Shown here piece after piece: positions 1 through 53,343 of a stretch of 64,000 nucleotides of DNA. Below the pieces are notes generated by a model. That model was given only the letters and a program-made list of their open reading frames with translations, did no database searches and had not been told where the DNA came from. The DNA lies in assembly GCF_001659605.2 (NCBI RefSeq), contig NC_035170.2:1488001-1552000 (forward strand), in the 5' to 3' direction. This DNA is from Manihot esculenta (Eukaryota; Streptophyta; Magnoliopsida; Malpighiales; Euphorbiaceae). Position numbers and translations under genes: made by a program. How positions within the stretch are numbered: the stretch's first letter is position 1; every line of letters begins with the position of its first letter.

Positions 1-787
1 GATTAATGCAGAATCAGGCCACGGTGAGTTCTGTTTTGCTCTACTTGTCTATATATCTTGCTTTATAATGGATACCATATTGAGTAGAGCATTGCAATTT
101 GGATCTTACTTGTGATGTAAAGGTACGACGAGAACAGCTGAAGTTTTGAGTAATCTGCAAAAAGTTAATATTGAAGCAGAGCTTGGAGGGAAAGAGAGCA
201 ACAATACCAATGAAGTGAGTCCTTTGACTCCATCTTTTATCAAAAAGGAGGAAGAAGCAAGAGAAGCAAATCCAGAAGCTGCTAAAACTTCATCATTAAT
301 GGTGATTTCTAGAATTTTAAAGGGTATACCTCAAGACCCTCATTTTTATCAGCTTAGAAATCACTCTGAACTTGCAAGAAAAATGATGATATGTTCATGG
401 GACCAGATTTTCTTAGAAACTGCAGAAAAAATTCACTCTTTACAACCAAATGGTTTCTGGGTCAGAGCCAGAGAGCTGTGGAAAACAATGGAGGAGTTGC
501 AGAGCATGGGATATAATGTGATTCCTTTGAGAAGAAGATTAGTGGAGTTGACTAATGTCATGACAGATTTGAAGCTGTTTAAATCAAATATAAAAGGGTT
601 AAAAATCAAGGCAGAGGATCACAGAGCAGAGAAAAGAAGACTTAAATTTGTGATTTTGAGCTTGCAGGAAATAATTATGGGAGAAGAAGAAGGCATGGAG
701 AGAGTAGTAGCTGAGGTTATGGATTTGGAGAAAGAGTTGCCAAAATTTGATGAAGCATTTGCCAATTTAGCTTTGGAGCCTCTCTAG
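1..787 (+). CDS. DUF724-like protein, 3' end only (copy 1)
   Basis: This is the C-terminal part of a gene that begins upstream of the window. An exon ends at 23 before a GTGAGT donor. A 99-nt intron (24-122) follows, and the last exon runs 123-787 to TAG. The intron is phase 1 and the frame reads through the junction. The last exon encodes about 220 residues: an acidic, Lys-rich linker, then a segment with IPQDPHFYQL, then a long charged alpha-helical region (LWKTMEELQSMGYNVIPLRRR onward) ending in a short LALEPL tail. This order resembles the C-terminal domain of plant DUF724 proteins, and also the C-terminal helix of some plant B3-domain proteins. Its molecular role is not established. The first ATG of the exon is internal, so translation must start upstream. 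It is nearly identical to the gene at 7453-10460. Confidence 0.7.
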
Positions 788-4095: not shown

Positions 4096-7000
4096 TCATT
4101 CCTCATCATCACTAAGCCAGCCGTAGCAAGGTTTACTCCTTTGGGCAGGAAGAGATTCAACTTGTGGCAGACAAAACAACTGTGAGGAGCACATCCCTGC
4201 TGAGATCTGAGAAGTGGGTGACGCTCTTCCAAGCTTGGCATCGCAGGTTTCGCCATTAGAGCATGGAACAGCTTCCACTGGTTCTGAAACTTGCAGAGCT
4301 AGTGTTTTTGTTGCTGAGGATTCAATGTTTGGTGACGGAACTCGCTTGGACTGACCATGAATGGAGTTCACTTGTTCTTCAGCATTGTCCTGAACAACGT
4401 CATCCTTCAAGAAGCATTGAAGGATAATGCAATTTACATCACCATAATTTTATAATTTAGTTCCTAGATAGTGCTATTATTAACAAATTAATTTTTATAT
4501 TTTAAAAAATTCCAAAAAGAAGCAACTTTTCCATATTTTCTTTCTAACCAAACATATCTTTTGATATTTTCTCTTTAACAACCTTCATGTTCATCTCTTT
4601 CTTTTTCCTCGAGAGAATCAATTTCCTTTAATTTCAGCAACAATTTCTCCAATAAGTTTAATCAATATGCTTCGAAAACTATCTTTTTAGTTTGGAACTC
4701 CATCATTCTCTCCTATAAGCAAAATCAAAAGGTATATTTCAATTCTTCATACCTAACCATCCCTTGTTCTAAAACAAAAAGGTTAAAAATTTCTTCATCA
4801 TTTGTCCAATGGGGAATTCATAATAATACTCAAAATCGCAACTCAAATGAATTATTTTCCATTTTAGATGATAAGTCAAAAGATGAAAAGGAATTACTGA
4901 ATTTTGGCAATCCATGACCTCAACGCTTTTTTTTTCTTTTTTGTTTCTTGGATCCTTGCTGATAAACCCATTTTAGATATTTTTTTTGTTCAAAACTTCA
5001 ATTGGCGTGCTCATGATAAAAGCGCACAGTAAGTGTTCGATGAAATGCCTAATAGAGCTGCTGCATTTTTCATTCACCTTTATTTTGTTTTTTTTTTTGG
5101 CCTTTTTGGTAGAGAAGAGAGAGGAAACGTTGCGGAAGAAACATCATTAATGATCTTAAATATGATAGAAGGGATATTTAGAATTTTGTGGTTTAATTAG
5201 GTTTTTATTTTATTTTTTAAGTTTCATAACACTTGTATTAACAATTTGATGAGCTACTTGCTGAATATGTTGTAAATTTTCACTTTGAATGATTTTAGTT
5301 TGTTTGATACTTCAGAAAGTAGGAAATCTTAGTTTTATGATTTTGTCAAATAGTGTTCATGATGATAGCAGTACAATTTGGGGAGAGCCAGGAGAAGAAA
5401 GGTTCAAATGGGCATTTTACTCTTTTTAAAAATATTAAAGGCAGATCTATTGGAAAATGGAATGGACGGAAGGATTACATTATAATGGGCTGGAAAAAAA
5501 AAACCTTTTAATGAATTTTTAAAAAATGTAAAGATGAGTTTATTAATAATGGCAAGAATTTATTAATAGGAAGATTTACATTTTAATTTTTAGTTATTAT
5601 TGTTATTAACAAATTATTTTTTATATTTTCATAATCTATTAAAACGTGTTTTAACTTTTATTTAATCAAAAAAATAATAATTAAAAATAAATAAAGGATG
5701 AGAATGAAAATTTTTAAAATTCAATTTTACTTTTAATAATCAAATTTATTGTTTAATTTTTAGATATTATTATTATTAATAAATTAATTAATACATATTT
5801 TTAAAAATTTATTAAAATATTTTTTTTTCCTTATCTGTTAAAAGTTTTTATAATTTCTTACAGTCAAATAAATAGTCCTACTACTCTTCCCCTCCTCCTC
5901 TTTCACCATAGTCATTTTCTTTATTTTCTTTTTTTTTTTATAGGAAAAAAATTAAAAGAAAAATTGAAAAAAAGAAAAAGAAAAAAAAAGAAAAAAAAAA
6001 GAACAGTAGGAAAAATCAATGAAGAAAAACAATGGAAGAAAAGAAAAGGTAATTTAATTTTTTTAAGTTTTAATAAATTTTTAAAAAATTCAGAAAATTG
6101 ACTTATTAAATTGTAAATTTTTCTTATTAATAATGGTAATAAGAAAGACTAAATTATAAATTTTTCTATTGTATAATCAGCTAGTTCAAACACAAATATG
6201 TGTAGATATTGAGAAAACACAGAAAGGGCTAAAACATTTACCTTTGATACTCCATTCTCAATCAACAATGGAGGATCGCTGTTTTCCAATAGCTTTGGTT
6301 CATAATTTTCCCTCTCAGATTTCTCTTGCTCCTCAAGGATGGAATCAATGAGAAGCCTGTAAGAATTCTCTTCAATAAAACTCCAACTTTCATCACCACC
6401 ATAAACCTGAAACAAACACAAGATCTCCTAAAAAGTGCCCTCTTCACTTCTCTGCCTGATTGCAGAGAAGGTCAGAAAAAACGTAAATTAAACATACCCT
6501 TCAGCTTAAGCAATGATAAATTCACCATTATTATGGGAAAATTGTTGGTGTGAGTGTGTGTGTGTGGGGGGGGGGGGGGAAGCGGCAGAAGGAAAGTAAC
6601 CAAACAGATACAATGAGATAAAATAATTTTATTTCCCTTATTTTCTCAGTAACCAAACAGAGTAAAGAACAGATCTACACAAGCACTTAATAAGCACATT
6701 AAATAATTCCCAGACGAAGAAAACTGCACTTCTTTTTCCTTGTTGGGAAAGTCACATTTGCATAACCAATATTTCCTCAGAAACCAAACAAAATCTATAA
6801 AAATTTTCTCGTAAATGCATCTCTATATAAAGGGATGACCTTCAGGAGATTTCTGACGGTTCTGCGAACCAAAGCTTCAGGGAAGCCCATTGCGCGAAGG
6901 GCGTCAAGTGCAGCATCAATACGCTTCACACCCACCTGTAAAATTTAAAATTTTTTCCAAGAATCGAACGAGAACATAGTCAGTGAAAAACGAGGGAAAA

Positions 7001-7109
7001 TGCACGAAAAGGGCAACATTTCTCAAAAGAAAAACACTGTAGAGACCTTTGAGTTCGTCTTCTGAGCGGAGGCATGTCTATTCGTTTGAACTGAGTCGTT
7101 TGTCAGCAT
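4096..7109 (-). CDS. WIYLD-domain protein (SUVR N-terminal type)
   Basis: I read four exons: 7109-7047 (ATG, 21 codons), 6935-6840 (32), 6406-6242 (55) and 4404-4096 (102 plus TGA). All junctions are phase 0 with GT-AG borders. The joined frame gives about 210 residues. Exons 2 and 3 together encode a WIYLD-type fold: a helix with ALRAMGFPEALVRRTVRNLL, then YGGDESWSFIEENSYRLLID and an acidic ILEEQEKSE helix. In Arabidopsis this domain forms the N-terminus of SUVR histone methyltransferases, where it is linked to ubiquitin binding. Here no pre-SET or SET domain follows. Exon 4 is a Ser/Pro-rich tail ending in CYGWLSDDEE, so this is the short WIYLD class. A nuclear chromatin role is inferred. 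The 1.8-kb intron 3 (4405-6241) could hide another exon. The gene is head to head with the DUF724-like gene. Confidence 0.72.
4405..6241 (-). other. Large intron of the WIYLD gene
   Basis: This 1.8-kb intron lies between exons 3 and 4. It is AT-rich with A- and T-runs (for example 5930-6000). I see no further open exon with a good frame, although short ones cannot be excluded. Confidence 0.5.
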
Positions 7110-7452
7110 ATTGGGAATCTCAATGGGTTTTGCTTTGGGAACTCACGCGGGCTAACGTCTGCTAGCATTGGACCCAGTTGTACACAGCGACCCATAACAT
7201 AACATGACTTGGAAGAATGTGAAGGCCTCTCCAAATCCCAAGTTCCTTTATGGGTAAGCAAGCCTCGACTATCCATGATTTGCCCCTTTTTACTGACCCT
7301 GTACAAGTCCCATCACCATTTTCACTTTGTAGTCTTCGCACTGTCAACTCCTTCATTTGGAAGTAATTGAAGAATAAGGTCACTTTGGAAAAATAAAAAA
7401 AAGAAGAGACTGGGTACAAACAGCCGTGTGTATTCTCCCATCTTTGGCAGCC
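7110..7452. promoter_or_regulatory. Shared head-to-head promoter region
   Basis: Only 343 bp separate the WIYLD start codon (7109, minus) from the proposed DUF724-like start codon (7453, plus). This interval must contain the 5' leaders and core promoters of both genes. It is less AT-rich than the spacers around it. I could not pick a convincing TATA box on either strand. Confidence 0.5.
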
Positions 7453-7517
7453 ATGACTGACTCAGGAGTGCCTCTCTTTCGTTTCCCGCCATCATCATCT
7501 GGTAGCTACCCATCTCC

Positions 7518-7550
<33 letters not shown>

Positions 7551-10460
7551 TCTCACAACACACACACACACACACAAAAACATTGTGCTTCTTTGCATAT
7601 TTACAAGCTTTAGCTGACAATGAATGATTTGATGAACAGAGCAGACTGACTCTGGGATCTCTCTCTTTGGTTCAATACCATCATTTCCCGGTAAGTACCA
7701 AATCTCCCGCGCTCTCTCTTACACTCGCACTGTCGCACACACGAAACAAAACCATTGGCAGGCTTTGGCTAACGAGGAATGATTTGATGAACAGCGCAGA
7801 GCGACTCTGGATCCACTTTCGGTGGTTCAAAACCATCATTATCTGGTAAGTACATCTTCTTCTTAGCTCTCTCTTACACTCGCACACACGAAACAAAACC
7901 ATTGGCAGGCTTTGGCTAACGAGGAATGATTTGATGAACAGCGCGGAGCGACTATGGATTCACTTACGGTGGTTCAAAACCATCATTATCTGGTAAGTAC
8001 ACCTTCTTCCTAGCTCTCTCTTACACTCGCACACACGAAACAAAACCATTGGCAGGCTTTGGCTAACGAGGAATGATTTGATGAACAGCGCAGAGCGACT
8101 CTGGATCCACTTTCGGTGGTTCAAATCCATCATTATCTGGTAAGTACATCTTCTTCCTAGCTCTCTCTTACACTCGCACACACGAAACAAAACCATTGGC
8201 AGGCTTTGGCTAACGAGGAATGATTTGATGAACAGCGCGGAGCGACTATGGATTCACTTACGGGGGTTCAAAACCATCATTATCTGGTAAGTACACCTTC
8301 TTCCTAGCTCTCTCTTACACTCGCACACACGAAACAAAACCATTGGCAGGCTTTGGCTAACGAGGAATGATTTGATGAACAGCGCAGAGCGACTCTGGAT
8401 CCACTTTCGGTGGTTCAAAACCATCATTATCTGGTAAGTACATCTTCTTCCTAGCTCTCTCTTACACTCGCACACACGAAACAAAACCATTGGCAGGCTT
8501 TGGCTAACGAGGAATGATTTGATGAACAGCGCGGAGCGACTATGGATTCACTTACGGTGGTTCAAAACCATCATTATCTGGTAAGTACACCTTCTTCCTA
8601 GCTCTCTTTTACACTCGCACACACGAAACAAAACCATTGGCAGGCTTTGGCTAACGAGGAATGATTTGATGAACAGCGCAGAGCGACTCTGGATCCCCTT
8701 TCGGTGGTTCAAAACCATCATTATCTGGTAAGTACATCTTCTTCCTAGCTCTCTCTTACACTCGCACACACGAAACAAAACCATTGGCTGGCTTTGGCTA
8801 ACGAGGAATGATTTGATGAACAGCGCAGAGCGACTCTGGATCCCCTTTCGGTGGTTCAAAACCATCATTATCTGGTAAGTACATCTTCTTCCTAGCTCTC
8901 TCTTACACTCGCACACACGAAACAAAACCATTGGCAGGCTTTGGCTAACGAGGAATGATTTGATGAACAGCGGTGAGCGGCTCTGCATTCAATCTCGGTG
9001 GTTCAAAACCATCATTATCTTGTAAGTACACCTTCTTCCTAGCTCTCTCTTACACCCGCACACACGAAACAAAACCATTGGCAGGCTTTGGCTAACGAGG
9101 AATGATTTGATGAACAGCGGTGAGCGGCTCTGCATTCAATCTCGGTGGTTCAAAACCATCATTATCTTGTAAGTACACCTTCTTCCTAGCTCTCTCTTAC
9201 ACTCGCACACACGAAACAAAACCATTGGCAGGCTTTGGCTAACGAGGAATGATTTGATGAACAGCTCTGAGCGACTCTGGATTCACTTTCGATGGTTCAA
9301 AACCATCATTATCTGGCAAGTACATCTTCTCTCTCTTTCTGACACACATACACAAAATTTAACTCTAGTGTATGTAAGCTTTAGCTATGAGGAATGATTT
9401 GATAAACAGCGCAGGTGTTCATTTATCTATTTGAGTTGTTTTCCTAGTCAATGAAGCCTTGCAGTTTTCTGTTTTTCTGTTTTTTTAGTCGAGTTCATTG
9501 AAATTTCTGATTTATTTAATGCCAACTAAAAAGAAGTCAATAGGCTCGTTAAATTTAGGTCCAGTTACAGCAAAAAATAGCGGCAGATTTTATCGGTGCT
9601 TGAAAACTTATTAACATTTAGCCAGGGCAACAGGCGTCCCATACACTGACCAAACCAACACAAACTCCTGCGAGATTAATGCAGAATCAGGCCACGGTGA
9701 GTTCTGTTTTGCTCTACTTGTCTATATATCTTGATTTATAATGGATACCATATTGAGTAGAGCATTGCAATTTGGATCTTATTTGTGATGTAAAGGTACG
9801 ACAAGCACAGCTGAAGTTTTGAGTAATCTGCAAAAAGTTAATATTGAAGAAGAGATTGCTGGGAAAGAGAGCAACAATACCAATGAAGTGAGTCCTTTGA
9901 CTCCATCTTGTATCAAAAAGGAGGAAGAAGCAAGAGAAGCAAATCCAGAAGCTGCTAAAACTTCATCATTAATGGTGATTTCTAGAATTTTAAAGGGTAT
10001 ACCTCAAGACCCTCATTTTTATCAGCTTAGAAATCACTCTGAACTTGCAAGAAAAATCATGATATGTTCATGGGACCAGATTTTCTTAGAAACTGCAGAA
10101 AAAATTCACTCTTTACAACCAAATGGTTTCTGGGTCAGAGCCAGAGAGCTGTGGAAAACAATGGAGGAGTTGCAGAGCATGGGATATAATGTGATTCCTT
10201 TGAGAAGAAGATTAGTGGAGTTAACTAATGTCATGACAGATTTGAAGCTGTTTAAATCAAATATAAAAGGGTTAAAAATCAAGGCAGAGGATCACAGAGC
10301 AGAGAAAAGAAGACTTAAATTTGTGATTTTGAGCTTGCAGGAAATAATTATGGGAGAAGAAGAAGGCATGGAGAGAGTAGTAGCTGAGGTTATGGATTTG
10401 GAGAAAGAGTTGCCAAAATTTGATGAAGCATTTGCCAATTTAGCTTTGGAGCCTCTCTAG
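7453..10460 (+). CDS. DUF724-like protein with tandemly amplified 51-bp exons
   Basis: I propose 15 exons. Exon 1 is 7453-7501 (ATG). Exons 2-13 are twelve 51-bp exons: 7640-7690, 7795-7845, then every 147 bp to 9265-9315. Exon 14 is 9622-9696 and exon 15 is 9796-10460 (TAG). Every junction is phase 1 and the joined length is 1401 nt (466 aa) with no stop. Exons 2-13 each give a 17-residue repeat such as QSDSGSTFGGSKPSLS or RSDYGFTYGGSKPSLS. Exon 1 (MTDSGVPLFRFPPSSS) looks like the ancestral unit. Exon 14 gives a VPYTDQTNTNSCEINAESGH segment, and exon 15 the DUF724-like helical domain (IPQDPHFYQL). Introns in the array are 96 nt, with GTAAGT donors, a CTAAC branch-like site about 23 nt before the acceptor, and GAACAG acceptors. 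The donor of exon 13 is GC (GCAAGT). Transcript proof is lacking, and low-level exon skipping would keep frame. Confidence 0.65.
7511..7576. repeat. CT/CA microsatellite in intron 1
   Basis: A (CT)n tract is followed by (CA)n inside the first intron of the DUF724-like gene. It supplies a pyrimidine-rich stretch upstream of the exon 2 acceptor. Confidence 0.85.
7795..9315 (+). repeat. 147-bp tandem array of exon-intron units, 11 copies
   Basis: Eleven units with an exact 147-bp period and no indel in 1.5 kb, flanked by diverged half-units (7605-7690 and 9330-9415). Each unit is a 51-bp exon plus a 96-bp intron. Units 1-6 alternate between two types (GAGCGACTCTGGATCCACTT and GAGCGACTATGGATTCACTT), giving a 294-bp dimer period. 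Units 7 and 8 are the first type with a CCCC variant. Units 9 and 10 are a third type (GTGAGCGGCTCTGCATTC) and unit 11 is mixed. Introns are as conserved as exons, so the amplification is recent. Confidence 0.95.
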
Positions 10461-10658
10461 ATTGATGTTCACTGGTATGACTTGATTATCAAATGTTTTA
10501 TAAGATCTTATCTACTTTAAAGTTTAATCTATGTTTATTTTGAGATTTACCCATCTACAATTTTTTTTTTCAAATGTTTACAGTTCTTAGGTGTTCTCAT
10601 AAAGCCTGTTTGTTAGTGAATTAAATCTTAACAAGGGATATTATTGAAAAAATTATTC

Positions 10659-12554
10659 AAAACAACTACTTTATGCACAGTGGATAGATAAATAGTGAAT
10701 AATTGTTTAAGGAAATAATCAATTGTTTAAGAAAATAATTCCACCAAACATAAAGTAATATTAATGAAATATTATAATAAATTAAACAAGTTGATTGTAT
10801 ATTGAAAAGGACATTTCTTCATATACAAACAATCTATTCAATATAATTTATAAATAATAATATTTAAAAAAATTACTAATTAATTAAATTTCGTAACTCT
10901 TTAATTTTAAAAATATATTAAAATATATTTAAAATATTAAAAAATTTATTAATTAATCTATTTATTAATTTTTTAAAAAAAATTAAAATGCTATGCCTAT
11001 ATGTATTAATTAGTTTAATATTTATAAAATTAAAGAAGCAATTAATAAATTTTATTCATATTATAAATTAAATAGTAAAATATTTAATATTTAAAAATAA
11101 CAAATGATCGATTAATATTTAATTTTTTAATCGATAAATTAGTTAATAAATTTTATTAAATTCAAGGATTAAATAATTATTTTTTCTGGTATTTATTAAT
11201 TTTATAAAAAAATTAATTTAACATAAATTTAATAAGTATTTATGAAATAATATTCGTTGTAAATAATATATTGATTTGGCCATGCTTAAATCATAACGAA
11301 AAAAATCTAAGTGCCTTGTATTTTTATTAAGAAATAAATTAGCTCAATTTAATTTTTTGAGGTAAATAAATTCATTAATCTGTGTTTAAGGGTCAAATTA
11401 GTCCATCTACTAACAAAAATTAAGTTTCTTTTTTTTTTTTTTTAATGTTAAGCCCAACTGCTTCCCCCTAGGCCAAACATTCTTATCCTAAACACTCGCA
11501 AGCCCAACTGCTTCTCCAAGTAGCCCAAACAATAAAATAATAGATTTTATTAGATATTTTTTACTCTTAAATTATATTACTTTATTAAAAATAAAAAATC
11601 ATTGATTTTTTTTAAAAAATTAATAATGAGATGGAACTTTTTGTCCAAACTTTAACATGTGGAATTTAAAAAGGCTTAAAAAAGAAACAACATGAGAGCT
11701 TGGTGGGCCTCCACCCTTATGTCTTTCCATGTTAAAGATGGTTTTCCTAAAAAAAACTTAGAAAAAAGTAGGTGAATTTCCATCATCTTTGATATTGCAA
11801 ATGGAATGAAAAGTGAAAAGAGAGATTTCTTATATCTTCTCTTTAGGTGTAAAGATGATCCTCCTTTTGATTCCATTACATGCAATTTGAAAGAGATAGT
11901 TCCCTTTCTTTTCTTGTCTAAACAGCAACGTGTCTGTGTGTGGATATGCACTACTTTAAGACCAATCTAGACCTTTGTCTATTAACAATACATTGACTAA
12001 CTTAACAAATAATTTAACTATGATCTTACTTGCGCACGCTTCCTTTGTCTTTTAAGGTTTATTCACTCAATAAATTTAATAAATAATTTTAATTTTTTAA
12101 AAAAATTATAATATCATATTTTTTATATATTAATATTAAATAATTTAAAAATTAGCCCGGTATATATGAAACATGATAATTAATATTATTTTGAGATTTC
12201 AAGATGATAAAAAATTTATAAAAATAAAATAAAATCATTATAGAACGAAACTAATATAATTAGGTTTCTATTTATTTTATAAAATTTATTGGATTATTTT
12301 ATCTACTTTCTTTGGATGTTGATGACCCTCTTTCAAAAATTTAAAATTTTAATATATTTTTTAAAATATATTAAAGGAAGTATTTCATTTTCATAATAGT
12401 CTTAAAGATTAATGTCAAATAAATGCTTAGATTTGAATTTTTTTAAAAATATAAAATATATAGTTATAATTATATGTGTTCGCAATGTGTCTATGATGTA
12501 GTATCGGACGGGCTGTTAATCGGTATATATCATCTTTAAGAAAAATAGGGTATG
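10659..12554. other. AT-rich spacer
   Basis: No gene is recognised. A short direct repeat of gcccaactgcttc with one change occurs near 11453 and 11502. The minus-strand frame at 11676-11951 has no family features and I treat it as chance. Confidence 0.5.
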
Positions 12555-31124: not shown

Positions 31125-34100
31125 ATGGCAAACCACCAAGACAGTAACCTTAATATTCCAAATGACCTGAGCTCTGCCCAAGATGGGCAGCAGTTCTCCT
31201 TTTCTAGCCCTACAACGTTGAATAACCAAACACCTATTTCTCTTAATCCCTCGCCAAGCCTGGCAGGGAATACTCCCACCATGACCCTGTCTAACCAAGA
31301 CATTCAAACCATGGCTCTCCAGCTACAAACCACTGCTCACTGGTTGGGCCAGATAATGCAATAAAGGGGACTTAGCACCCCAGTAAACACACTCCCAGTA
31401 GTGGAGGAACCCAGAACCGATGAACCCCAACCTACCTCTGCCCGCCTCCGAACTAACAACCACGATGCCGTAGAAGAGGAAGAACCGGAGGCCCGAATTC
31501 ATGGGCGAAGGGCAAGAGAGTTGATAGAAAACGAAAAGGTGAACGACTATTCTGCCGAAACAACCAGAGAAACGGGAACTAAAACAGAGGAGGAAGAATG
31601 CAGTTTGGGCAAAAGATCCAGCCCGGAAGACGAGAAAATGAACCAAAAGCTGAAAAGGTTGAAAGAGCAACTCCTAGCCGAGCTAGGTAAGAAAGATCAG
31701 AGTCAAACCTCCTTGCCTACTTCTTCTCCCTTCTCAAAGTTAATGCAGCAGGAGACCGTTCCCAAAAAGTTTATGATGCCGCCGATGGCGGCCTATAATG
31801 GGGCTGGTAACCCGAGAGAGCATGTCATGAACTATAAGACCTTCATGGAGTTGCAAACTCTATCAGATGCTCTGATGGGCAAGGTGTTCCCAACAACGCT
31901 CGCGGGACCAGCGAGGGCATGGTTCAACAGCCTGGAGGCCGGAAGCATTCAAAGTTTCGGAGATCTGGCCACTCGCTTCATTAGCCGGTTCGTAGCTGGG
32001 GTGCCTGCAGATAGGAAGACGAGTTATCTGGAAACAGTAAGACAAAAAGCTGGTGAATCCCTCAGAGAGTATGTCGCCCGTTTCAATACGGAGGCCCTGC
32101 AGATCCCCGACCTTGATGAAGGAAGGGCGGTAGAGGCCATGCAGAAGGGAACAACTTCTGCCGAGTTCTTCGGTTCACTAAGCAGGAAACCTCCGACCTC
32201 GCTGGCCGAGTTGATGAAGAGGGCGGAAAAGTATATAAGGCAGGATGACGCCTTAGTAACGAGTAGATTTGCCAAAAGGGCGAAAGGAAAAAAAAAAGCC
32301 CCGGAGGAGGGGAGGTCGGAGAAGCACGAGAAGAAGCATGGAAAGAGGCCTGAACCGTACAAGCAGGCCTGGGAAAGAAGGGATCACAGGCCTCCTCCTC
32401 CTCGGATTCTCGAACCAAGAACGCTCCCTCCTTGGGTTCCGGAGAAACTGACTCCATTAAATGCGTCTAGAGCCGAGGTGCTCATGGCTGTCCAAAATAA
32501 AGAGTTCCTCCAGTGGCCTCAACCTTTGAAGTCGGAAGCAGATCAGAGAAATCCTGATAAGTATTGTCAATATCACCGAACGCATGGCCACGACACAAAT
32601 AACTGTTTTCAGTTAATTGCAGAGATTGAGAGATTGATAAAAAGGGGGCATCTCAAAAATTTTGTGAAGAAACCGGAGGGGCAGAGGCCTCAACCCGGTC
32701 CGGCAGCCCAGATGCCCAGGAGAACTGGAACGGGGCCAGTGAATGATGGGTCCAGTGGGATTATTAACATGATCGTTGGAGGAACTGGAGGACGGATGAA
32801 CCGTCGAGGAAAGAAGAGAAACCGGGAAGGGGAGACCAGCAATGGTGAGGTCATGCAGATCGTTGAACACTCTCCCATGACCATCGCTTTCTCTTCGGAG
32901 GATGCACAGGGCATTCAGATGCCCCATGATGACGCGCTTGTCATTGAAGTAGTCATTCATAATTTTCGGGTGAAGAAAGTTCTGGTGGATGACGGAAGTA
33001 AGGTTAACTTATTGCCATATCGGGTTTTCCAGCAAATGGGTATCCCAGAGGAACAGCTGGTTCGGGACCAGTCACCCATCAAAGGGATCGGAGGAGCACC
33101 GGTACTCGTAGAAGGGAAGATGAAGCTGGCCCTTACCTTGGGAGAAGCACCCAAAGCTCGCACCCATTATGAGGTGTTCTTGGTGGTCAAACTCCCACTG
33201 AGCTACAATGCGATTTTGGGGAGGCCGGCATTGTTCAGTTTCGAAGCTGTCACTAGCATCAGGTATCTGGCACTCAAGTTCCCAACGGAAGGAGGAGTGG
33301 GAATGGTCCGGGGAAGCTAGGAGGAAGCAAGGGCAGTATACTTGGCCACAGTGACGGAACCAAACTCAACCGGAGAAGCGCTTGATTCGGAAGTTTTGGA
33401 GGTCAGGGATGAGACAAAGGAAGCCCGGACAGAGCCCGTTGGAGAGCTGGAGACTTTCTCCCTATCAGAAGAAGAAACGAGTAAGGTCTTCAGCCTCAAT
33501 GCCGGCCTCACCAAAGAACAAAAAGGTGAAGCCATGGCCCTGATCCGAAGTCACTCGCCGACCTTCGCATGGAAGCCCTCAGACATGCCGGGAATTGACC
33601 CCAAAGTAATGACACACCAATTGAATGTCCTCCCCGAGGCTAGACCAGTAAAGCAAAAGAAGAGAGTAGTGGGAAGAGAGAAGCAGCAGGCTACCCTGGA
33701 AGAGGTGCAGAAGCTAGAAGAGGCAAGCTTTATTAGGGAGGTTATGTACCCACAGTGGTTGGCAAATCCCGTGTTAGTCAAAAAAGCCAATGGCAAATAC
33801 AGGATGTGTATAGATTTTACCGACCTGAATAAGGCCTGCCCTAAAGATTGTTACCCCCTCCCCGATATTAATAAGATGGTCGACTCAACGGCTGGTTTTG
33901 ATTACATGTCTTCTTTGGATGCTATGTCTGGTTACCACCAAATCCCAATGGAAAAAGCGGATGAGGAGAAGACCTCATTTATAACTGAAGACGGGACTTA
34001 CTGCTACAGAGCTATGCCTTTCGGATTAAGAAACGCCGGGGCAACTTACCAACAATTAATGAATAAAATCTTTAAAAATCAGATCGGCAGGAACGTAGAA

Positions 34101-36701
34101 GTGTATGTGGATGACATGGTGGTTAAAAGTTCAACTTTTCAACAACATATAACGGACTTAAGGGAGATATTTGGGGTGCTAGATCAATACAGGATGAAGC
34201 TGAATCCAGCAAAGTGTGCTTTCTTCATCAGGGGAGGAAAATTCTTAGGATACATGGTGAGTGGAAAAGGCATTGAGCACAATCCGGAGAAAGTGGAAGC
34301 CATATTGAATATGCCAAAGCCGACCTGTGTAAGGGACGTCCAGAGATTAACCGGGAGAGTAGTGGCGCTTAACTGATTTATGTCAAGGTCGGCAGAAAAG
34401 TGTTTGCCGTTCTTCAAAAAATTGAGGAAGGTCCCGAATTTTGAATGGACAGAAGACTGCCAAAAAGCCTTCACAGAACTTAAGGAATACCTCAGCTCAC
34501 CTCACGTGCTCAGCAGCCCCGTAAAAGGGGAAGAACTCTTGATATACTTGGCAGCCTCAGAGCAAGCAGTCAGCGCAGTACTAGTAAGAGTGGAAGAAGG
34601 TGAGCAGAAACCTGTTTTCTACGTCAGCAAGGTACTCAGAGACACTGAGGTCAGATACTCGAACATTGAAAAATTGGCGTATGCCTTGTTGTTAGCGGTC
34701 CGGAAATTCAAAGTTTATCTGGAAGGCCACCAAGGAGTTGTGATGACGGACCAACCGTTAAAGAAGATCCTACGTAGGCCGGAAACTTCAGGACGGATGT
34801 TAGCATGGTCCGTGGAAATCAGCCCTTACTGCCTGGAGTACCGACCTCGGACAGCTATAAAATCTCAAGCGCTGGCTGACTTCATAGCAGAATGCTCATT
34901 CAACAAGGAGAAGGAAGGATCATCCTCGGAGATACCAAGCAAAGAAAGAGAGGGAGAGCTTTCCCAAGAGTCCAGCTGGAAGCTATATGTAGACGGAGCA
35001 TCAGGCTCTGAGGGCAGCGGCGCTGGGATAATACTTAAGGGGCCGGAGGGCTTCAAAGTATGTTATGCCTTACGACTAGAATTCAAAGCTTCTAATAATG
35101 TGGCCGAATATGAAGCCTTGGTGAACGGAATGTTGGTAGCTTTGGAAATAGGGGTAACCGACCTCGAAGTAAATAGTGACTCTCAGCTGGTGATCAACCA
35201 GGTGACGGGAATATATCAGGCCAGAGATCCCATCATGCAGAGTTATCTTGATAAAGTAAAAGCTGTGGAAGCCGACCTCACGAGCCGAGGAATATTGACG
35301 AGATTTCAGAGGATACCTCGAGATGAAAATGAGGAGGCAGACCTGCTTAGTCGGCTGACCAAAGAAGAGTTAGAGCAGCTCCCTGATGAAGTCTACATAC
35401 AGCATGTCAGCACACCTGCTTTCAAGAAAATATATACAGTACTGCAGGTGGAGCAGAGCCCAACTTGGATGACTCCATACTTGAGATACTTGGAAAAGGG
35501 CGAACTCCCCAAAGATAAAGTTGAAGCCAAAAAGGTAGCAGCTCGAGCTGCCAATTACCAAGTAATAAGGGGAACTTTATACAGAAAAGGGAAATCCAGC
35601 CCATGGCTCCGGTGTGTGAGTCCGGAAGAAGCTGCAAAGGTAATGGAGGAAATACATAGAGGCCTATGTGGAGCTCACGAGGGAGCAGGGACATTAGCTA
35701 ACAAAATATTCAGGCAAGGATACTACTGGCCCACTGTTAAAAAAGAAGCAGAAGAGTTTGTCCGGAGGTGTGACGTATGTCAGAGATTTGCTAATGCCAT
35801 CAGGACCCCTGCCACTCCTCAAGCAAGCATATCCAGTCCATGGCCTTTCTCACAATGGGGAATTGACATCCTGGGACCTTTCCCCAAGACTACGGGGCAA
35901 AGGAAATTCGTAGTGGTGGCTGTGGAATATTTTTCGAAATGGCCAGAGGCAGAAGCAATAGCCACAATCACAGCTCGCAAGATGATAGATTTCGTATGGG
36001 GACATATCATCTGCAGATTTGGCATACCAAGAGTACTTATCTCAGACAACGGCAGACAATTTGACTGCAGCACTTTCAGAGCCTTCACGACGAACATGGG
36101 CATATGGCATAAGTTCTCCTCCGTGGCTCATCCTCAGACTAATGGCCAAACGGAAGTCACTAATAGAGCTATCCTTCAAGGATTAAAGAAACGGCTGAAT
36201 GGCGCAAAGGAGAATTGGGCAGAAGAGCTCAATAGCACTCTATGGGCACTCCGAACCACTCCCAGAGCGCCCACTCAAGAAACCCCGTTTGCACTTGCAT
36301 ACGGCACAGAGGCTGTAGTCCCAGTTGAATTGCAGATCCCCACTCATCGAGTTCAATTCGTTAGTGAGAACGTTAATGGGGACAAATTAAGGAGCAACCT
36401 AGATGCTCTTGAAGAAGTTAGGGAAGAAGCCCAAGTCCGAACTGCTGCTTATCAACAACGAGCAGCAAGATATTACAATCGAAAGGTCAGAGAAAGAAGT
36501 TTGAAGGTGGGAGACCTGACTTTAAGAAACCTAGAAGCTACTGGAAAAAGAGCAGCTGCAGGCAAACTAGCACCGACCTGGGAAGGTCCATTCAAGGTGA
36601 CAAAAGTGGTTAAACCCGGGGTATACCGAATTGAAGATATGCAAGGAAACCCCGAGCCCCATGCTTGGAACATCCAACACTTAAAAAGGTATTTTCCTTG
36701 A
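31125..36701 (+). pseudogene. gag-pol of the Tat-type element, three in-frame stops
   Basis: This is one continuous frame of 1859 codons from ATG 31125 to TGA 36701, interrupted by stops at 31362 (TAA), 33318 (TAG) and 34374 (TGA). Domains in order: gag capsid region (about 31770-32270) with a variant zinc knuckle CQYHRTHGHDTNNC (near 32570); protease with VLVDDGSKVNLLP (near 32980); reverse transcriptase (33640-34370) with YVDDMVV; conventional RNase H (34400-34880); archaeal-type RNase H beginning LYVDGASGSEGSGAG (34985-35370); integrase with an HHCC finger (H..H..CDVCQRF, 35640-35790), DILGPFP and SDNGRQFD acidic sites, and a GPFKV module near the end. Alternative starts at 31401 and 33342 are only segments of the same frame after the stops. 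It would need readthrough or help in trans to function. Confidence 0.93.
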
Positions 36702-36910
36702 AATATTTGTAAAGAAAAAACATCGTATTTTGACAAATGTGAATAAACGAAAATTGTTTATACAATGTGATTATCTTTGTGAAAAAACATTTTTCATGAT
36801 AAAGAAAAGAACAGGGCTCAGAAAGATCCCTCGCAAACAAGACCTCAGTTAGGCACAAAAACCAGTTGAGATGACGAAGCGACAGTAAGGCCAATAAGCC
36901 TGAATTTTGC

Positions 36911-39830
36911 AAAAATAACCGGCGAGGCCCCGAGGTCGTCCCGGAGATTCACAGAAAAACAGGATCCCGTAAGATCTCCTGGAAACAAAAATAACCGGCG
37001 AGGCCCCGAAGTCGTCCCGGAGATTCACAGAAAAACAGGATCCCGTAAGATCTCCTGGAAACAAAAATAACCGGCGAGGCCCCGAGGTCGTCCCGGAAAT
37101 TCAAAGAAAAACAGGATCCCGTAAGATCTCCTGGAGACAAAAATAACCGGCGAGGCCCCGAGGTCGTCCCGGAAATTCAATGAAAAACAGGATCCCGTAA
37201 GATCTCCTGGAGACAAAAATAACCGGCGAGGCCCCGAGGTCGTCCCGGAAATTCAATGAAAAACAGGATCCCGTAAGATCTCCTGGAGACAAAAATAACC
37301 GGCGAGGCCCCGAGGTCGTCCCGGAAATTCAATGAAAAACAGGATCCCGTAAGATCTCCTGGAGCCAAAAATAACCGGCGAGGCCCCGAGGTCGTCCCGG
37401 AAATTCAAAGAAAACCAGGATCCCGTAAGATCTCCTGGAGACAAAAATAACCGGCGAGGCCCCGAGGTCGTCCCGGAAATTCAAAGAAAAACAGGATCCC
37501 GTAAGATCTCCTGGAGACAAAAATAACCGGCGAGGCCCCGAGGTCGTCCCGGAAATTCAATGAAAAACAGGATCCCGTAAGATCTCCTGGAGACAAAAAT
37601 AACCGGCGAGGCCCCGAGGTCGTCCCGAAAATTCAATGAAAAACAGGATCCCGTAAGATCTCCTGGAGCCAAAAATAACCGGCGAGGCCCCGAGGTCGTC
37701 CCGGAAATTCAAAGAAAACCAGGATCCCGTAAGATCTCCTGGAGACAAAAATAACCGGCGAGGCCACGAGGTCGTCCCGGAGATTCACAGAAAAACAGGA
37801 TCCCGTAAGATCTCCTGGAAACAAAAATGACCGGCGAGGCCCCGAGGTCGTCCCGGAAATTCAAAGAAAAACAGGATCCCGTAAGATCTCCTGGAGACAA
37901 AAATAACCGGCGAGGCCCCGAGGTCGTCCCGGAAATTCAATGAAAAACAGGATCCCGTAAGATCTCCTGGAGCCAAAAATAACCGGCGAGGCCACGAGGT
38001 CGTCCCGGAGATTCACAGAAAAACAGGATCCCGTAAGATCTCCTGGAGACAAAAATAACCGGCGAGGCCCCGAGGTCGTCCCGGAAATTCAATGAAAAAC
38101 AGGATCCCGTAAGATCTCCTGGAGACAAAAATAACCGGCGAGGCCCCGAGGTCGTCCCGGAAATTCAATGAAAAACAGGATCCCTTAAGATCTCCTGGAG
38201 CCAAAAATAACCGGCGAGGCCCCGAGGTCGTCCCGGAAATTCAAAGAAAACCAGGATCCCGTAAGATCTCCTGGAGATAAAAATAACCGGCGAGGCCACG
38301 AGGTCGTCCCGGAGATTCACAGAAAAACAGGATCCCGTAAGATCTCCTGGAAACAAAAATGACCGGCGAGGCCCCGAGGTCGTCCCGGAAATTCAAAGAA
38401 AAACAGGATCCCGTAAGATCTCCTGGAGACAAAAATAACCGGCGAGGCCCCGAGGTCGTCCCGGAAATTCAATGAAAAACAGGATCCCGTAAGATCTCCT
38501 GGAGACAAAAATAACCGGCGAGGCCCCGAGGTCGTCCCGGAAATTCAATGAAAAACAGGATCCCGTAAGATCTCCTGGAGACAAAAATAACCGGCGAGGC
38601 CCCGAGGTCGTCCCGGAAATTCAATGAAAAACAGGATCCCGTAAGATCTCCTGGAGCCAAAAATAACCGGCGAGGCCCCGAGGTCGTCCCGGAAATTCAA
38701 AGAAAACCAGGATCCCGTAAGATCTCCTGGAGACAAAAATAACCGGCGAGGCCCCGAGGTCGTCCCGGAAATTCAAAGAAAAACAGGATCCCGTAAGATC
38801 TCCTGGAGACAAAAATAACCGGCGAGGCCCCGAGGTCGTCCCGGAAATTCAATGAAAAACAGGATCCCGTAAGATCTCCTGGAGACAAAAATAACCGGCG
38901 AGGCCCCGAGGTCGTCCCGAAAATTCAATGAAAAACAGGATCCCGTAAGATCTCCTGGAGCCAAAAATAACCGGCGAGGCCCCGAGGTCGTCCCGGAAAT
39001 TCAAAGAAAACCAGGATCCCGTAAGATCTCCTGGAGACAAAAATAACCGGCGAGGCCACGAGGTCGTCCCGGAGATTCACAGAAAAACAGGATCCCGTAA
39101 GATCTCCTGGAAACAAAAATGACCGGCGAGGCCCCGAGGTCGTCCCGGAAATTCAAAGAAAAACAGGATCCCGTAAGATCTCCTGGAGACAAAAATAACC
39201 GGCGAGGCCCCGAGGTCGTCCCGGAAATTCAATGAAAAACAGGATCCCGTAAGATCTCCTGGAGCCAAAAATAACCGGCGAGGCCACGAGGTCGTCCCGG
39301 AGATTCACAGAAAAACAGGATCCCGTAAGATCTCCTGGAGACAAAAATAACCGGCGAGGCCCCGAGGTCGTCCCGGAAATTCAATGAAAAACAGGATCCC
39401 GTAAGATCTCCTGGAGACAAAAATAACCGGCGAGGCCCCGAGGTCGTCCCGGAAATTCAATGAAAAACAGGATCCCGTAAGATCTCCTGGAGCCAAAAAT
39501 AACCGGCGAGGCCCCGAGGTCGTCCCGGAAATTCAAAGAAAACCAGGATCCCGTAAGATCTCCTGGAGACAAAAATAACCGGCGAGGCCACGAGGTCGTC
39601 CCGGAGATTCACAGAAAAACAGGATCCCGTAAGATCTCCTGGAAACAAAAATGACCGGCGAGGCCCCGAGGTCGTCCCGGAAATTCAAAGAAAAACAGGA
39701 TCCCGTAAGATCTCCTGGAGACAAAAATATCCGGCGAGGCCCCGAGGTCGTCCCGGAAATTCAATGAAAAACAGGATCCCGTAAGATCTCCTGGAGCCAA
39801 AAATAACCGGCGAGGCCCCGAGGTCGTCCC
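36911..39830. repeat. 76-bp tandem repeat array, about 38 copies
   Basis: The unit begins AAAATAACCGGCGAGGCCCC and includes GAGGTCGTCCCGG, CAGGATCCCGTAAGATCTCC and a variable GGA(A/G)(A/C)C end. About 38.4 units span 2,920 bp with no length change. Variants (CACAGAAAAAC or CAATGAAAAAC or CAAAGAAAA(A/C)C; AAAC/AGAC/AGCC) recur in the same order 17 units (1,292 bp) apart, so part of the array was duplicated as a block. 76 is not a multiple of three, so the stacked 63-codon frames on the minus strand are artefacts of the repeat. Confidence 0.97.
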
Positions 39831-47402: not shown

Positions 47403-50400
47403 ATGGAACTTACAGGAAGCTTAGCTCCATTATGGCCTTCTTCTGTCCTTCTTCTTCATGTCTTTTTCTTATTTTTTTTAACCATATTATGCCCACAACA
47501 AGCTGATTGTCTCACTCAATTGGGAAACGAGACTGATAAGCTTGCTCTCCTGGAATTCAAAGCCCAGATAACCAATGATCCAAATGACTTCTTCAGGTTA
47601 TGGAATGATTCTGTTCACTTCTGCAAATGGCAAGGAGTTGCTTGTGGCCGCAAACATCAGAGAGTTAGGTCTCTAGATCTCAACGACTTGAGCTTGTCAG
47701 GGACCGTATCACCTCATGCAGGGAATCTTACTTTCTTGAGGTACTTGGGTCTTGCAAGCAACAATTTCCATGGAGAAATTCCTAAAGAAATTGGTCAGCT
47801 ATTCCGCTTGAGAATTATCGAAATGCGGAACAACTCATTGAGTGGTGAAATTCCAGGGGACATCAGCAACTGCTCAGAGCTCAGGGTTATGAGTTTGATT
47901 AAGAACAACTTAGCAGGGAATATACCATCTCAGCTAGGCTCTTTAAAGAAGCTTGTAGTTCTTTATCTTGGCGGAAATAAACTCACAGGAGAGATCCCAC
48001 ATTCCCTTGGCAATCTTTCATCTCTCCAAGACTTTTACTTAACAGAAAATCATTTGCAGGGAAAGATTCCGACAGGATTGGGACAGTTAAGGAACTTAAC
48101 AGTCTTTGCTGTCGGAGCAAATAATCTGAGTGGTACAATACCTCCTGCACTTTACAATATCTCATCTATCACTACCTTTGAGACTACAAGTAATCAATTC
48201 ACTGGAAGTCTCCCAGCAAACTTAGGCCTAACTCTGCCGAACTTGCAAGAACTGTTCTTGGCTCAAAATGGATATTTTGGAAGTATTCCAGAATCACTGG
48301 CCAATGCTTCTCGGCTTCGGCTTATTGACATCTCGAACAACAGTTTCACAGGGCAATTCCCAACCGATCTGGGATATCTCAAGGGACTTGAATCGCTTCA
48401 TTTGGAGTTCAATTTCTTTGGCAGTAACACAAGTCAAGATTTGAGTTTCTTACCATCTCTTGCCAACTGCAGCAATCTGCAACAACTATACTTTGATGGA
48501 AACAATTTTGGTGGTGCATTGCCTAGCTCCATTGGCAATCTGTCTAATCTTGTGCAGTTAGGCTTCGGACGGAATCCAATATCAGGAACAATCCCAGAAG
48601 AGGTAGGCAATCTTGTCAATTTGTATCGATTAGATATGGATAGAAACCTTTTTTCTGGTAGTATCCCCATTTCTTTTGGAAAGTTACAAAAGCTGGAAAG
48701 GCTAACTTTAAATCAAAATCTACTTTCCGGAGAAATACCAGCTTCCCTTGGTAATATTACCACGCTATATTGGCTTGAATTAGAAGGAAACAAATTCCAA
48801 GGAAATATAACCCCAAGTCTTGGAAGATGCAGAAATCTTCGTTTCCTAGATGTCTCAAGAAATAAACTCACAGGCTTCATACCCAAAGAAATCCTTGGCC
48901 TTTCTTCTCTATCGGAAACTCTTAACTTATCACAGAACTCATTGACAGGTCCCTTGCCCATAGAAGTTGGCAGCTTGAGAAGTATTAATGCATTAGATGT
49001 CTCAGAGAACAAACTCTCTGGGGAAATTCCCCGAACAATAGGTGACTTATCTAGGCTAGAAATCCTCAACATGCAGGGTAACTTCCTGCAAGGATCCATT
49101 CCCTCAATTTTTGATTCCTTGAGAGGTCTCCAACGAATAGATCTGTCAAGAAACAACTTGTCAGGAAATATTCCAAATGAGCTAGAGAAACTTATGTTCT
49201 TGCAATATTTGAACCTTTCTTTCAATAATTTTGAGGGTGAGGTACCAAAAACTGGAGTTTTCAGCAATGCAAATGCATTTTCCCTTGTTGGAAATAAAAA
49301 TCTTTGTGGAGGTATCCCAGAATTGCAGCTGCCAGCTTGTCCTGGCAAAGAAGAAAAACGCAGAAGGCCTTCCGTTGTCATAGTCCTCACTACAACCATC
49401 AGTTCATTTATCCTTGTCGTGATAGCTACGTCCTTTTATCTTTTCTACCGACGAAAGTCAAAAAGGAATCCCATTTCCTCGCCTTTTATGGTGGATAAGC
49501 TTCCTCAAATTTCATATGGGGAACTCTTGAAAGCAACTGATGGATTCTCTTCAGAAAACTTGATTGGACAAGGAAGTTTTGGCTCAGTATATAAAGGAAG
49601 TCTTGATCAGCAAGGACAGGGTTTGGTGGCTGTAAAGGTACTCAACCTTCAGCAACATGGTGCTTCCAAGAGCTTCATTTCGGAGTGTAATGCATTGAAA
49701 AACATCCGGCATCGGAATCTTGTTAAAATCTTGACGTATTGCTCAAGCATTGATTTTAAAGGCAACGATTTCAAAGCTCTAGTGTTTACGTATTTGGCGA
49801 ATGGCAGTCTGGAAATGCGGTTGCATCCACAAGAAAATGGTAACAGCCAGACAAAGGAATTAAATTTTCTTCAGAGACTATGCATTGCCATTGATGTGGC
49901 TTCTGCATTACATTATCTTCATGACCTTTGTGAAACGCCAATCGTCCACTGCGACCTCAAACCTAGCAATATTCTTCTTGACAATGACATGACTGCTCAT
50001 GTTGGTGACTTTGGATTAGCAAGGCTCATTTCTGAAAGCACCAGCAACTCTTCTCAAAGCCAAATCTTCTCAACTGGTATAAAGGGAACAATTGGCTACA
50101 TGGCTCCAGGTAATATTTTGCACACTTCTTTCTTCTTTAATAGACACATATAGTAACTCTACGATCTTGATCATATTTTAATATAACTGGAGTTGTATGA
50201 ATTACAGAATATGGAGTAGGCAGCAACGTGACAACTTATGGAGACGTGTATAGCTACGGAATACTCTTGCTAGAGATGTTCACAGGAAAGAGACCAACGC
50301 ATGAAATTTTCACAGATGGTTTAGATCTCCACAACTTTGTTAAGGCAAAGCTCCCAGGACAAGTCAGGCAGGTTGTGGATCCCACATTATTCACTCCAGG

Positions 50401-50605: not shown

Positions 50606-53343
50606 CTTCATATGGGTTTGATATGGCTTCCAGAATGAGTTATAGAGACTCAGAACATTGCAGTTTTTTCCTGTTCATGGAAAATAATTGAAGCTTTTGG
50701 CGATGTTAGAGGCTCTGAAGCTTGCTATTTTAGAGGCTCAGAACATGACCTATATTTTCTGTAATAGCCTAATTTTAAGCTTAAATAAATTTTGACTATA
50801 TCTTTCACGGAATTTAAAATGATCCAGCTAACTATATAATTAAATTTTCATTCTCTTAATTTTAAGAATATTCTTATTGTAATTTTATTATGCAAAATAT
50901 AATCACTAAATTAAAATTGATCACAGTTAGACTTAGATATTATAATTTATTAGTATTTTGAATAGTTTCACCTCATTTTATGAATAAGGAATACCGTAGA
51001 CTTTTTTAATAAACTCATTAATCTCATATATTTTTTAAGATAAAATACATGATTTTGATATTAATAATAAGAGATTGATTAAAACTGATTTAATAATTTT
51101 AATTATATTTTTAATTTAATATTTTTTGAGGGGATGCTACATTTTCAATGACGAACTTAATGCATTCATATTATTTTGATTGGGAAAAGTCGTCTTATGA
51201 ATGTGAACTATGGTAGCGTCTGTCTAGGGTTAGTAGAATCTTGAACTAGTCCTTGAAATAATCTCTCCCATTATTGACATTAAAAAGTCAAGTAAATGAT
51301 GATTTAAATATAGTATTAAATTATTTATATTTATAGTTGATTTTTGAAGTAAATGATAATTTTATTATTTAAATTAATTTTAACTAGAGTTAATTAAAAA
51401 AATCTCAAAAGCTATATATAAAATAATTAAATTTTTAAACAAAGGGATCGTAAATTAGATGATAATTTAATTTAAATTAATTTTATAGCTTGTTAAAAAA
51501 ATCTCAAAAGATAATAAACATGGAATAAGATTAAATTTTTTAAAGTAAATATTATATTAAACTGCATACTTAAATATTAGGTACATTTATGAAGTGAAAA
51601 AATTAATTAAATTGAATTAATTTAAAATTTTAGTTTAATTTAATTTTTATTTTAAAATAATTTTAATTATTTTGAATTAATTTTAAAAAAAATAAATCAG
51701 TAAAATTGAATCAATCCGTAATAATAATATATTATTTTTAATAATATAAAGAGATTAGACCATAATCAATATTAAAATATTTTAATTAAATTTTATATTA
51801 TCAATAGTAAAATATAAAAAATAAAAAATCTATTAAAAAATTTAATCGATTAAATTGAATGAGATTAATTCAATTTAAATTAATTTTTATTTAAAATTAA
51901 TTCGATTTAATTTTATAAATATTAAAATTTTAATTTTTAATTTTAAATCAAACGGATCAAAAGATCAACCCTACATTAAATTAGGAGAAGCCAATTGTAA
52001 CATTCAGTTGCTTGGTTGAATGTGAAAGCAATCATATTGGCAGAATACGATAATTTTGAATTGTATATAATATTTACTATGAAATTATTAAATAATTTGA
52101 AATAATAATTTTAAATCAAGTAGAAAGTGAGTTTAAAAAATATTTGGGCCAGTTTAGAGTTTCAATTGGTATCAGAATCACTATGAGTTAAATAAATTGT
52201 GCAGAATTAATGGGTCTGCGAGGAAAGAGATACTCGTATGAGACGAGGTGATACCTGATATATTAGCGAACCATGATACATGAGAGTCTGGTTCTGTTTT
52301 AGTAATTATATTCAATTTAATTACGATGAGAACGTCCTAAAAAAGCATAACATTCAAGTGTTTGCTTGCCGTCGAACATTGGTGGAATACGAAAATTTCA
52401 AATTATATATAATAATTAATATTAAATAACTAAATAATTTAAATAATTTGATTTAATTATTTTAAATTAAATAAAAAATAAATTTAAAAATTATTTAAAA
52501 TAGTTTAGAACAAACTGTTTAACCAAAACAATGACTTAGATTTTCAAATTGAATATATTTTCCATACTGTCTGAATCAATCTCTTGAAAAGGTGCTCCAA
52601 TATTGTGTGTGTGTTTTTTTTTAAATGTTGTGCTTATAATTTTTCAATTAGATAAAAATAACAATAATTGATGCATATACCTTTAGTACACCTCAATTGT
52701 ATCTTGTATCATTGAGGCACACAAATATTGTGCGGTCCACGTGATTTTAGTAAATCCATAAAGTGTGTCTGAAGAGCAAGGCGGATCTAGTTGAGTCATT
52801 ATATTTTTCCAAAAATTTAACAATATTTACAATTTAATTTTTATTTTTTTAGTAATAAATAATTTAATTCATGAAATTTTTATTTTGATAATAAAATAAT
52901 TCTTTTATTAATTTTATTATTAGTAACTGAGGTATCAATATAATTATAAAAACATTATTGTAAATATTAAAATTATAAAAATTAAATTATTATAAATTAT
53001 TAAAATTAAAGAGATTAAATTATTATAATAATAAAATTTTAAAAAAATTAAATTATTATACGCTAACAGTGAGTTTTAATTGCACTATTTTATTAATTGA
53101 ATGAGATTTTAAAAATTAAATTATTTCCCATTAAAAGGAACAAAGTCTAAGTTGTGTGTTTTTTTAAATTTCAAGAAAATGAGAAATATATTATAATTTT
53201 TCTTTTTTATTCTTAAATGTCTGAAAAGCTGGTTACAAGTCTTTGTCGTTAATAAATGTGCTTGCAGACAGCTCCACGAGTTGGCTTCTTATAACAATCT
53301 CTATATTAATTTCCCTATCCATTTGCATCCTCACCAAGAAAAA
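50606..53343. other. Spacer between RLK1 and RLK2
   Basis: Mostly AT-rich. Two related segments at about 51995-52095 and 52345-52450 (TAACATTCA, TGCTTG, GGCAGAATACGA or GGTGGAATACGA, then AATTATATATAATA) are direct repeats about 350 bp apart. They enclose a GC-richer block (52200-52320, with GTGATACCTGATATATTAGC). This could be a decayed transposon. 51640-51960 is a low-complexity aattgaatt block ending AAGATCAACCCTAC, possibly an old MITE. No gene is seen. Confidence 0.45.

Follow-up and report, generated by a model that had tools for sequence, protein, structure and literature searches.

The question raised by this locus is whether a 147-bp tandem repeat in the genome of cassava (Manihot esculenta) is plain satellite DNA or a row of small protein-coding exons. 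The repeat (11.7 copies at 7607–9330 according to Tandem Repeats Finder) lies in a stretch of 64,000 nucleotides, positions 1,488,001 to 1,552,000 of the forward strand of contig NC_035170.2, which we refer to as the window and to which all coordinates apply. An earlier sequence-only reading of the window had proposed that each unit holds a frame-neutral 51-bp exon. Taking the splicing from gene models in the public databases, we find it probable that the repeat is part of a protein-coding gene of cassava in which the first exon gave rise to a series of small internal exons arranged in tandem. Tandem exon duplication as such is a well-known phenomenon (PMC9013439), and the case described here is a variation on it. 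Its terminal acceptor is corrected here, a specific model of its origin is proposed, and its exons unexpectedly diverge more than its introns.

We first describe the array itself. Its twelve 51-bp segments, termed U1 to U12, are found at 7640–7690 and then, in 147-bp steps, from 7795–7845 through 9265–9315, each preceded by AACAG; copy number, coordinates, frame and acceptors were confirmed as the sequence-only reading had described them. As in tandem exon duplication, the segments are neighboring homologous exons with splice sites of their own: all twelve acceptors read TGATTTGATGAACAG, and eleven GT donors (GTAAGT) are joined by a single GC donor (GCAAGT) behind U12, after 9315. A branch-like CTAAC is located at –26 of eleven acceptors, the first having CTGAC. 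The donor of exon 1 is GTAGCT. All twelve units are 51 nt long and of phase 1-1, so that they are frame-neutral and the number included can vary. Joining 7453–7501, the twelve units, 9622–9696 and 9796–10460 gives 1401 nt, or 466 codons plus stop, and this chain is open throughout, as had been stated. None of the twelve units has a stop in the proposed frame, compared with three and one in the other two; in the joined chain, both of these other frames hold stops, mostly in the 3′ exons.

All parts of this gene, which we call gene B, lie on the plus strand. Exon 1 (7453–7501, MTDSGVPLFRFPPSSS) consists of the ATG and a 46-nt body and is followed by intron 1 (7502–7639), which is homologous to the unit intron and ends in a unit-type acceptor. 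U1 (7640–7690) encodes EQTDSGISLFGSIPSFP. The next six units are one dimer three times, with 2 to 3 differences in 294 positions: type a is represented by U2 (7795–7845, AQSDSGSTFGGSKPSLS), U4 (8089–8139, an N variant) and U6 (8383–8433), type b by U3 (7942–7992, ARSDYGFTYGGSKPSLS), U5 (8236–8286) and U7 (8530–8580). U8 (8677–8727, AQSDSGSPFGGSKPSLS) and U9 (8824–8874) are identical in their exon sequence, as are the type c units U10 (8971–9021, AVSGSAFNLGGSKPSLS, with T at its end) and U11 (9118–9168). U12 (9265–9315, SLSDSGFTFDGSKPSLS) precedes the GC donor. The post-array exon of the gene models (9634–9696, GVPYTDQTNTNSCEINAESGH) and the terminal exon (9796–10460, stop at 10458–10460) complete the gene.

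Next, we asked whether the predicted chain is represented in protein databases. A search with the joined chain, in which only the 7992 candidates with most words in common were scored, placed the array within the annotated M. esculenta gene MANES_10G015200v8/LOC110624697. Cassava proteins top the matches; isoform numbers reach X47, and one isoform is named nucleoporin NUP116/NSP116. RefSeq isoform models draw on transcript evidence. The twelve cassava proteins retrieved are cluster representatives, of which P0002 stands for 55 sequences, and the contig, given for eleven of the twelve entries, is the same each time. In models under both the RefSeq and the MANES name, the units are predicted as in-frame exons joined to DUF724, just as the sequence-only reading had inferred. 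Its remark that such a protein is not known from any description needs qualification: public databases already contain it, although no publication was found under three names of the gene in the literature collection searched. Nine of the twelve proteins (P0001, P0002, P0004–P0010) parse fully into exon 1, whole units and GV. Behind the array, eleven of the twelve continue SLS-GVPYT, corresponding to an acceptor at 9634, instead of the SLS-ARATGVPYT expected from 9622, and the proposed junction at 9622, which none of them uses, has to be replaced. U12 is present in eleven models despite its GC donor (GCAAGT, 9315–9321).

The parsed models differ in the units they omit, while unit order and frame are kept: P0001 has eleven units, P0004 ten and P0010 four. 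In four of the twelve proteins (P0007–P0010), an A precedes LSDSGFTFDG; therefore a G-ending unit directly precedes U12, i.e., the T-ending U10 and U11 are omitted. Further omissions place two consecutive type b units in P0006 and P0008, type b directly before type c in P0005 and P0006, and U4 before a U2/U6-type unit in P0009. Parsed models carry 3 to 12 units together (gene A units, see below, counted), which differs from a mutually exclusive exon cluster of the Dscam type. According to these models, the length of the protein's front end would be variable, each step amounting to 17 amino acids.

To compare coding with noncoding parts of the repeat, we analyzed U2 to U11, each with 51 exon and 96 intron sites. 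Thirteen of the 51 exon sites are variable versus 5 of the 96 intron sites (Fisher test, 9e-4), and the mean pairwise difference amounts to 9.9% in exons versus 1.4% in introns, a contrast reached in 0 of 20000 site permutations. Of the 13 variable exon sites, eleven alter a residue and a single one is synonymous; at the remaining site, the last base of the exon, the junction residue is affected (A/S). Counted by site class, 12 of about 38 nonsynonymous sites are variable versus 6 of about 109 synonymous and intron sites (Fisher test, 1.1e-4). U3 and U11 differ at 9 of 51 exon positions, none of them at codon position 3 (probability by chance 0.026), and at 0 of 96 intron positions. The four changes that distinguish types a and b, recurring in all three dimers, sit at codon position 2. 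Equal divergence at all codon positions and in introns, which the sequence-only reading had named among its refuting conditions, does not hold as far as it was examined: the exons vary more than the introns, though a codon-position bias within the exon is not significant (P 0.14). Under our reading, selection would have favored amino acid replacements in the first half of the units. In snake venom genes, exons reportedly outpace introns.

How well do these observations distinguish a spliced array from other explanations? The array could be intronic satellite DNA that transcripts treat as one long intron, the models being artefacts of the predictor. The near-identity of the 147-bp units fits such a view, as does P0010 with only four units, and the open frame says little against it: nine and eleven of the twelve units are open also in the two other frames, and stop-free units are weak evidence taken alone because the units are near copies. 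However, a satellite would not be expected to differ more in its exons than in its introns, mainly by amino acid changes, and both acceptor and frame are kept in all twelve units, which moreover are included in models under two annotation names. We therefore consider a satellite very improbable. A more serious contender, which we judge almost as plausible as its opposite, is that the wealth of isoforms is mostly technical, owing to mis-mapped reads or template switching, and that the gene in fact yields a single protein, or a small number of them, of constant length. Several observations weigh against variable splicing in this way. Some units are identical in their exons, and short reads in near-identical exons, together with template switching during cDNA synthesis, can yield false skipping models. 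P0003 was not fully parsed and contains one chimeric unit; P0011, also not fully parsed, begins within the array in another frame and, judged by eye, reaches the main frame in a way that fits use of the second AG in AACAGCGCAG as acceptor; both look like such artefacts. Seven of the twelve models (P0002, P0003, P0005–P0009) combine the head of the upstream paralogue, gene A, with gene B units and may be mapping artefacts; they span sequence that holds a gene on the minus strand. Apart from this contender, two points tell against our main reading: P0010 could reflect the collapse of the repeat in an earlier assembly, and the nearest CTRAY motif of the 9634 acceptor is no closer than –127. Against a mostly technical origin of the isoforms, the junction with A before LSDSGFTFDG is distinct in sequence and is shared by RefSeq isoforms and a UniRef-only record, hence by records of more than one type, and the acceptors are identical in all units, which makes skipping mechanistically easy.

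Even if the array is spliced, its divergence need not reflect selection on the protein. A multi-base mutation patch, conversion from an unseen donor or homogenization of the introns alone by gene conversion is possible, and we give this explanation a substantial probability while leaning somewhat away from it. Eleven of the 13 variable exon sites fall into the first 29 nt, and 8 of the 9 differences between U3 and U11 fall within 23 nt. With circular shifts that preserve this clustering, the exon–intron contrast is reached in 3 of 147 placements, counting the true one, and the contrast as a whole comprises 18 variable sites only, in related units. Within the exon alone, neither the nonsynonymous excess (12 of 13, P 0.11) nor the number of variable sites at codon position 3 (2 of 13) stands out. 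The units of gene A lie outside the window, hence they are a possible donor. Against a patch or conversion speaks that codon position 3 is spared in the U3–U11 comparison, that all but one of the variable exon sites alter the protein and that a BLAST search of 6801–10800 against the window revealed no unit copy outside the array.

Where did the repeating unit come from? The idea that exon 1 is the founding copy is supported: the 46 nt after its ATG match the last 46 nt of U1 at 31 of 46 positions without gaps (0 of 20000 shuffles), and exon 1 is the best match to U1 in the window outside the array. Matches to the unit intron extend over 82 of 95 aligned bases in intron 1, 91 of 93 in the U1 intron and 73 of 84 in the U12 intron (0 of 500 shuffles each). 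The intron part of the last copy (9316–9414) continues to GATAAACAGCGCAG and departs from the repeat at 9415, where we place the breakpoint of the founding duplication. From the intron matches and the end of the U12 intron at CGCAG, the repeating piece is therefore the exon 1 body plus the start of intron 1 plus CGCAG; judged from the sequence, each unit would consist of the 46-nt exon 1 body without start codon and the first part of intron 1. In the proposed mechanism, a tandem duplication would have joined the interior of intron 1 (GATRAACAGCGCAG), after CGCAG, to the point in exon 1 directly behind the ATG. In one event, an intron-internal AACAG would have turned into an acceptor 5 nt ahead of the 46-nt body, and 5 + 46 = 51 nt of phase 1-1 would happen to preserve the frame. 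With the frame kept by 51 nt, each further unequal exchange would have added 17 codons and left the protein intact. Later stages of this growth can also be recognized, in the threefold dimer of U2 to U7 and in the pairs with identical exons, U8/U9 and U10/U11.

We then looked for the array in related proteins. The Hevea proteins P0013 and P0014 have a single head and no array; P0014 starts with MTDSGFPVFGSVPSSS, which by eye is near U1, without copies of it. A cassava-type array was found in none of the 24 non-cassava family proteins examined (24 of 28). A search with the array region only, again limited to the candidates with most words in common (7984 scored), returned the twelve cassava proteins and one unrelated protein, P0041 (PF18135, with an S-rich repeat of its own), which by eye is a low-complexity coincidence. 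We also compared the first 14 residues of 20 N-termini with later stretches of the same protein, using 100 shuffles each. The N-terminal block is repeated, beating all 100 shuffles, in three of them: both cassava proteins and P0022 of Rubroshorea leprosula, whose head divides into six blocks of the type MADSKPSIFSSLSSSSPSPA, including a short one. As a tentative scenario, possible rather than probable, we propose that, once the cassava lineage had split from Hevea, the array expanded there to twelve units, with the gene's own first exon as the amplifying cassette, that sticker residues (FG, YG, LG) were then diversified by selection while the introns stayed near-identical, and that the head block of Rubroshorea was amplified independently, so that the family may repeatedly evolve tail valency. 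Apart from this, P0017 of Turnera subulata has an N-terminal repeat with a 59-residue shift that is unrelated in sequence to the cassava units, and P0027 of Mercurialis carries another, different N-terminal repeat.

What kind of protein does the array extend? The DUF724-like C-terminal domain of the sequence-only reading was substantiated by a Pfam match above the gathering score (PF05266; 49.7 bits for P0001 versus a gathering score of 38.4) at residues 289–425 of P0001, corresponding by hand count to about 9987–10397; the terminal open reading frame of gene A scores 53.1 bits. Pfam revealed no Agenet family at E up to 1 in P0001 or five relatives, i.e., no arrangement of the AIP1/DUF7 type. 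Eleven of the twelve units contain FG, YG or LG, and U12 has FDG. FG dipeptides are also enriched in the N-termini of the family, with 22 in 19 proteins versus 9.8 expected (3 of 5000 permutations), 19 in 18 proteins versus 8.4 without cassava (4 of 5000) and 15 in 14 proteins versus 7.1 with one protein per genus or source (17 of 5000); within their first 60 residues, 11 of 19 members show FG or YG. Helices are predicted for the DUF724 part, with a pLDDT of at least 90 at 112 of 213 residues and below 50 at residues 1–49. DUF724 has been called a protein-interaction domain in Arabidopsis AIP1, and AIP1 homodimers are reported from the yeast two-hybrid system (PMC4634149).

Based on these observations, we hypothesize that a DUF724 helical domain able to pair with itself carries an FG-like multivalent tail, which would have been amplified recently and would be spliced variably. 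The units would form a flexible tail with FG-type motifs and variable valency, copy number and exon skipping would set its length, and the helical domain would pair with itself or with other proteins. Some findings do not fit such a function: U12 and exon 1 of gene B lack FG, YG and LG, 8 of the 19 family members have neither FG nor YG in the first 60 residues, and no nucleoporin is among the matches of the DUF724 part (four PDB sequence matches and the fold matches, all weak). Structural searches with the DUF724 part gave no significant relative, and no publication linking DUF724 to the nuclear pore was found in the literature collection searched.

To place the gene among known systems, we compared it with its relatives and with possible analogues. 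In short DUF724 proteins (Hevea LOC110633318, Mercurialis LOC126659688 and others), the C-terminal domain is the same and a head with FG or FxF is frequent, and the Hevea head resembles U1 by eye; unlike the cassava protein, those examined lack a cassava-type array, and P0022 repeats its own head. The protein resembles FG nucleoporins in its S/G-rich tail, where FG-type motifs recur at regular intervals, and in the helical domain to which this tail is attached, but homology to a nucleoporin was not found, sequence and fold matches being weak. No publication on FG repeats with nucleoporins and exon duplication was found in the literature collection searched. We know of no sequence relation between the cassava protein and the proteins encoded by schistosome micro-exon genes. 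These micro-exon genes (PMC10526429) and the exon duplications of grass CENP-C (PMC549713) are the nearest analogues found. The schistosome genes likewise have very short tandem exons (3–81 bp) and vary their proteins by alternative splicing (PMC10526429), but their introns measure up to 5 kbp versus 96 nt here, and their products are secreted. Grass CENP-C, again a plant protein, has undergone tandem exon duplication repeatedly and shows an excess of amino acid change in some regions, its duplicated exons being described as under positive selection (PMC549713); in contrast to the single 51-bp exon that is present twelve times in a DUF724 protein, an exon pair, triplicated in rice, is duplicated there in a kinetochore protein. 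ASSET in snake venom genes (PMC2711939) resembles the cassava array in that short exon segments change strongly between gene copies, but these copies are separate genes for secreted toxins, whereas the cassava copies are exons within one gene.

The conversion of a first exon into a repeating internal one usually leaves no trace of its steps. In this gene, the founder adjoins its copies, and the point where the last of them ends is preserved next to them. The near-identical 96-nt introns provide a built-in control for selection on protein change, and the units form a natural series of lengths in which the role of an FG-type tail could be probed. Should the amplification be as recent as the near-identical units suggest, the number of copies would be expected to vary among accessions of cassava, a crop that has been sequenced extensively.

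The window also contains the 3′ end of the tandem paralogue, gene A (1–787, plus strand), with the end of exon 2 at 1–23 and the terminal exon at 123–787; its 5′ part lies outside. Positions 1–977 are 98.2% identical to 9674–10657. The aligned stretch shows 11 substitutions, 2 in the intron and 9 in the exon, whereas the 3′ flank differs by a 7-bp indel but by no substitution; seven of the exon substitutions fall in 6 codons with a residue difference, and 2 are synonymous. P0012, which was not parsed as a gene B product, belongs to gene A and carries its terminal sequence: exon 1 and three units are followed by an exon beginning GSLNLGPVTAKNGGRFF that aligns, partly as judged by eye, with Hevea sequence. 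In gene B, the corresponding upstream part of the ancestral exon 2 is found at 9544–9633 on the plus strand (GSLNLGPVTAKN, as in P0012), but here the GSLNLGPVTAKNGGRFF-type stretch from 9544 runs into an in-frame TAA (GSLNLGPVTAKNSGRFYRCLKTY and stop). The models use the internal acceptor at 9634, and 9544–9633 is omitted in the 11 models that reach gene B.

Between genes A and B, a WIYLD domain is encoded on the minus strand (Pfam 1.2e-24 for a two-exon piece). The WIYLD-domain gene occupies 4096–7100 and starts, by eye, at ∼7075, leaving about 380 bp between it and the gene B start; a promoter shared by the two genes is possible. Farther downstream, reading frames for gag, reverse transcriptase and integrase of an LTR-type retrotransposon are found at 31401–36701 (Pfam), followed by a 76-bp tandem array of 38.4 copies at 36910–39830. 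Three consecutive frames at 47403–50153, 53281–56109 and 61003–63813 combine leucine-rich repeats with a kinase domain (Pfam), as in receptor-like kinases, and a minus-strand frame at 58235–59026 with a Pfam FAD_binding_3 match is probably part of a monooxygenase-type gene.

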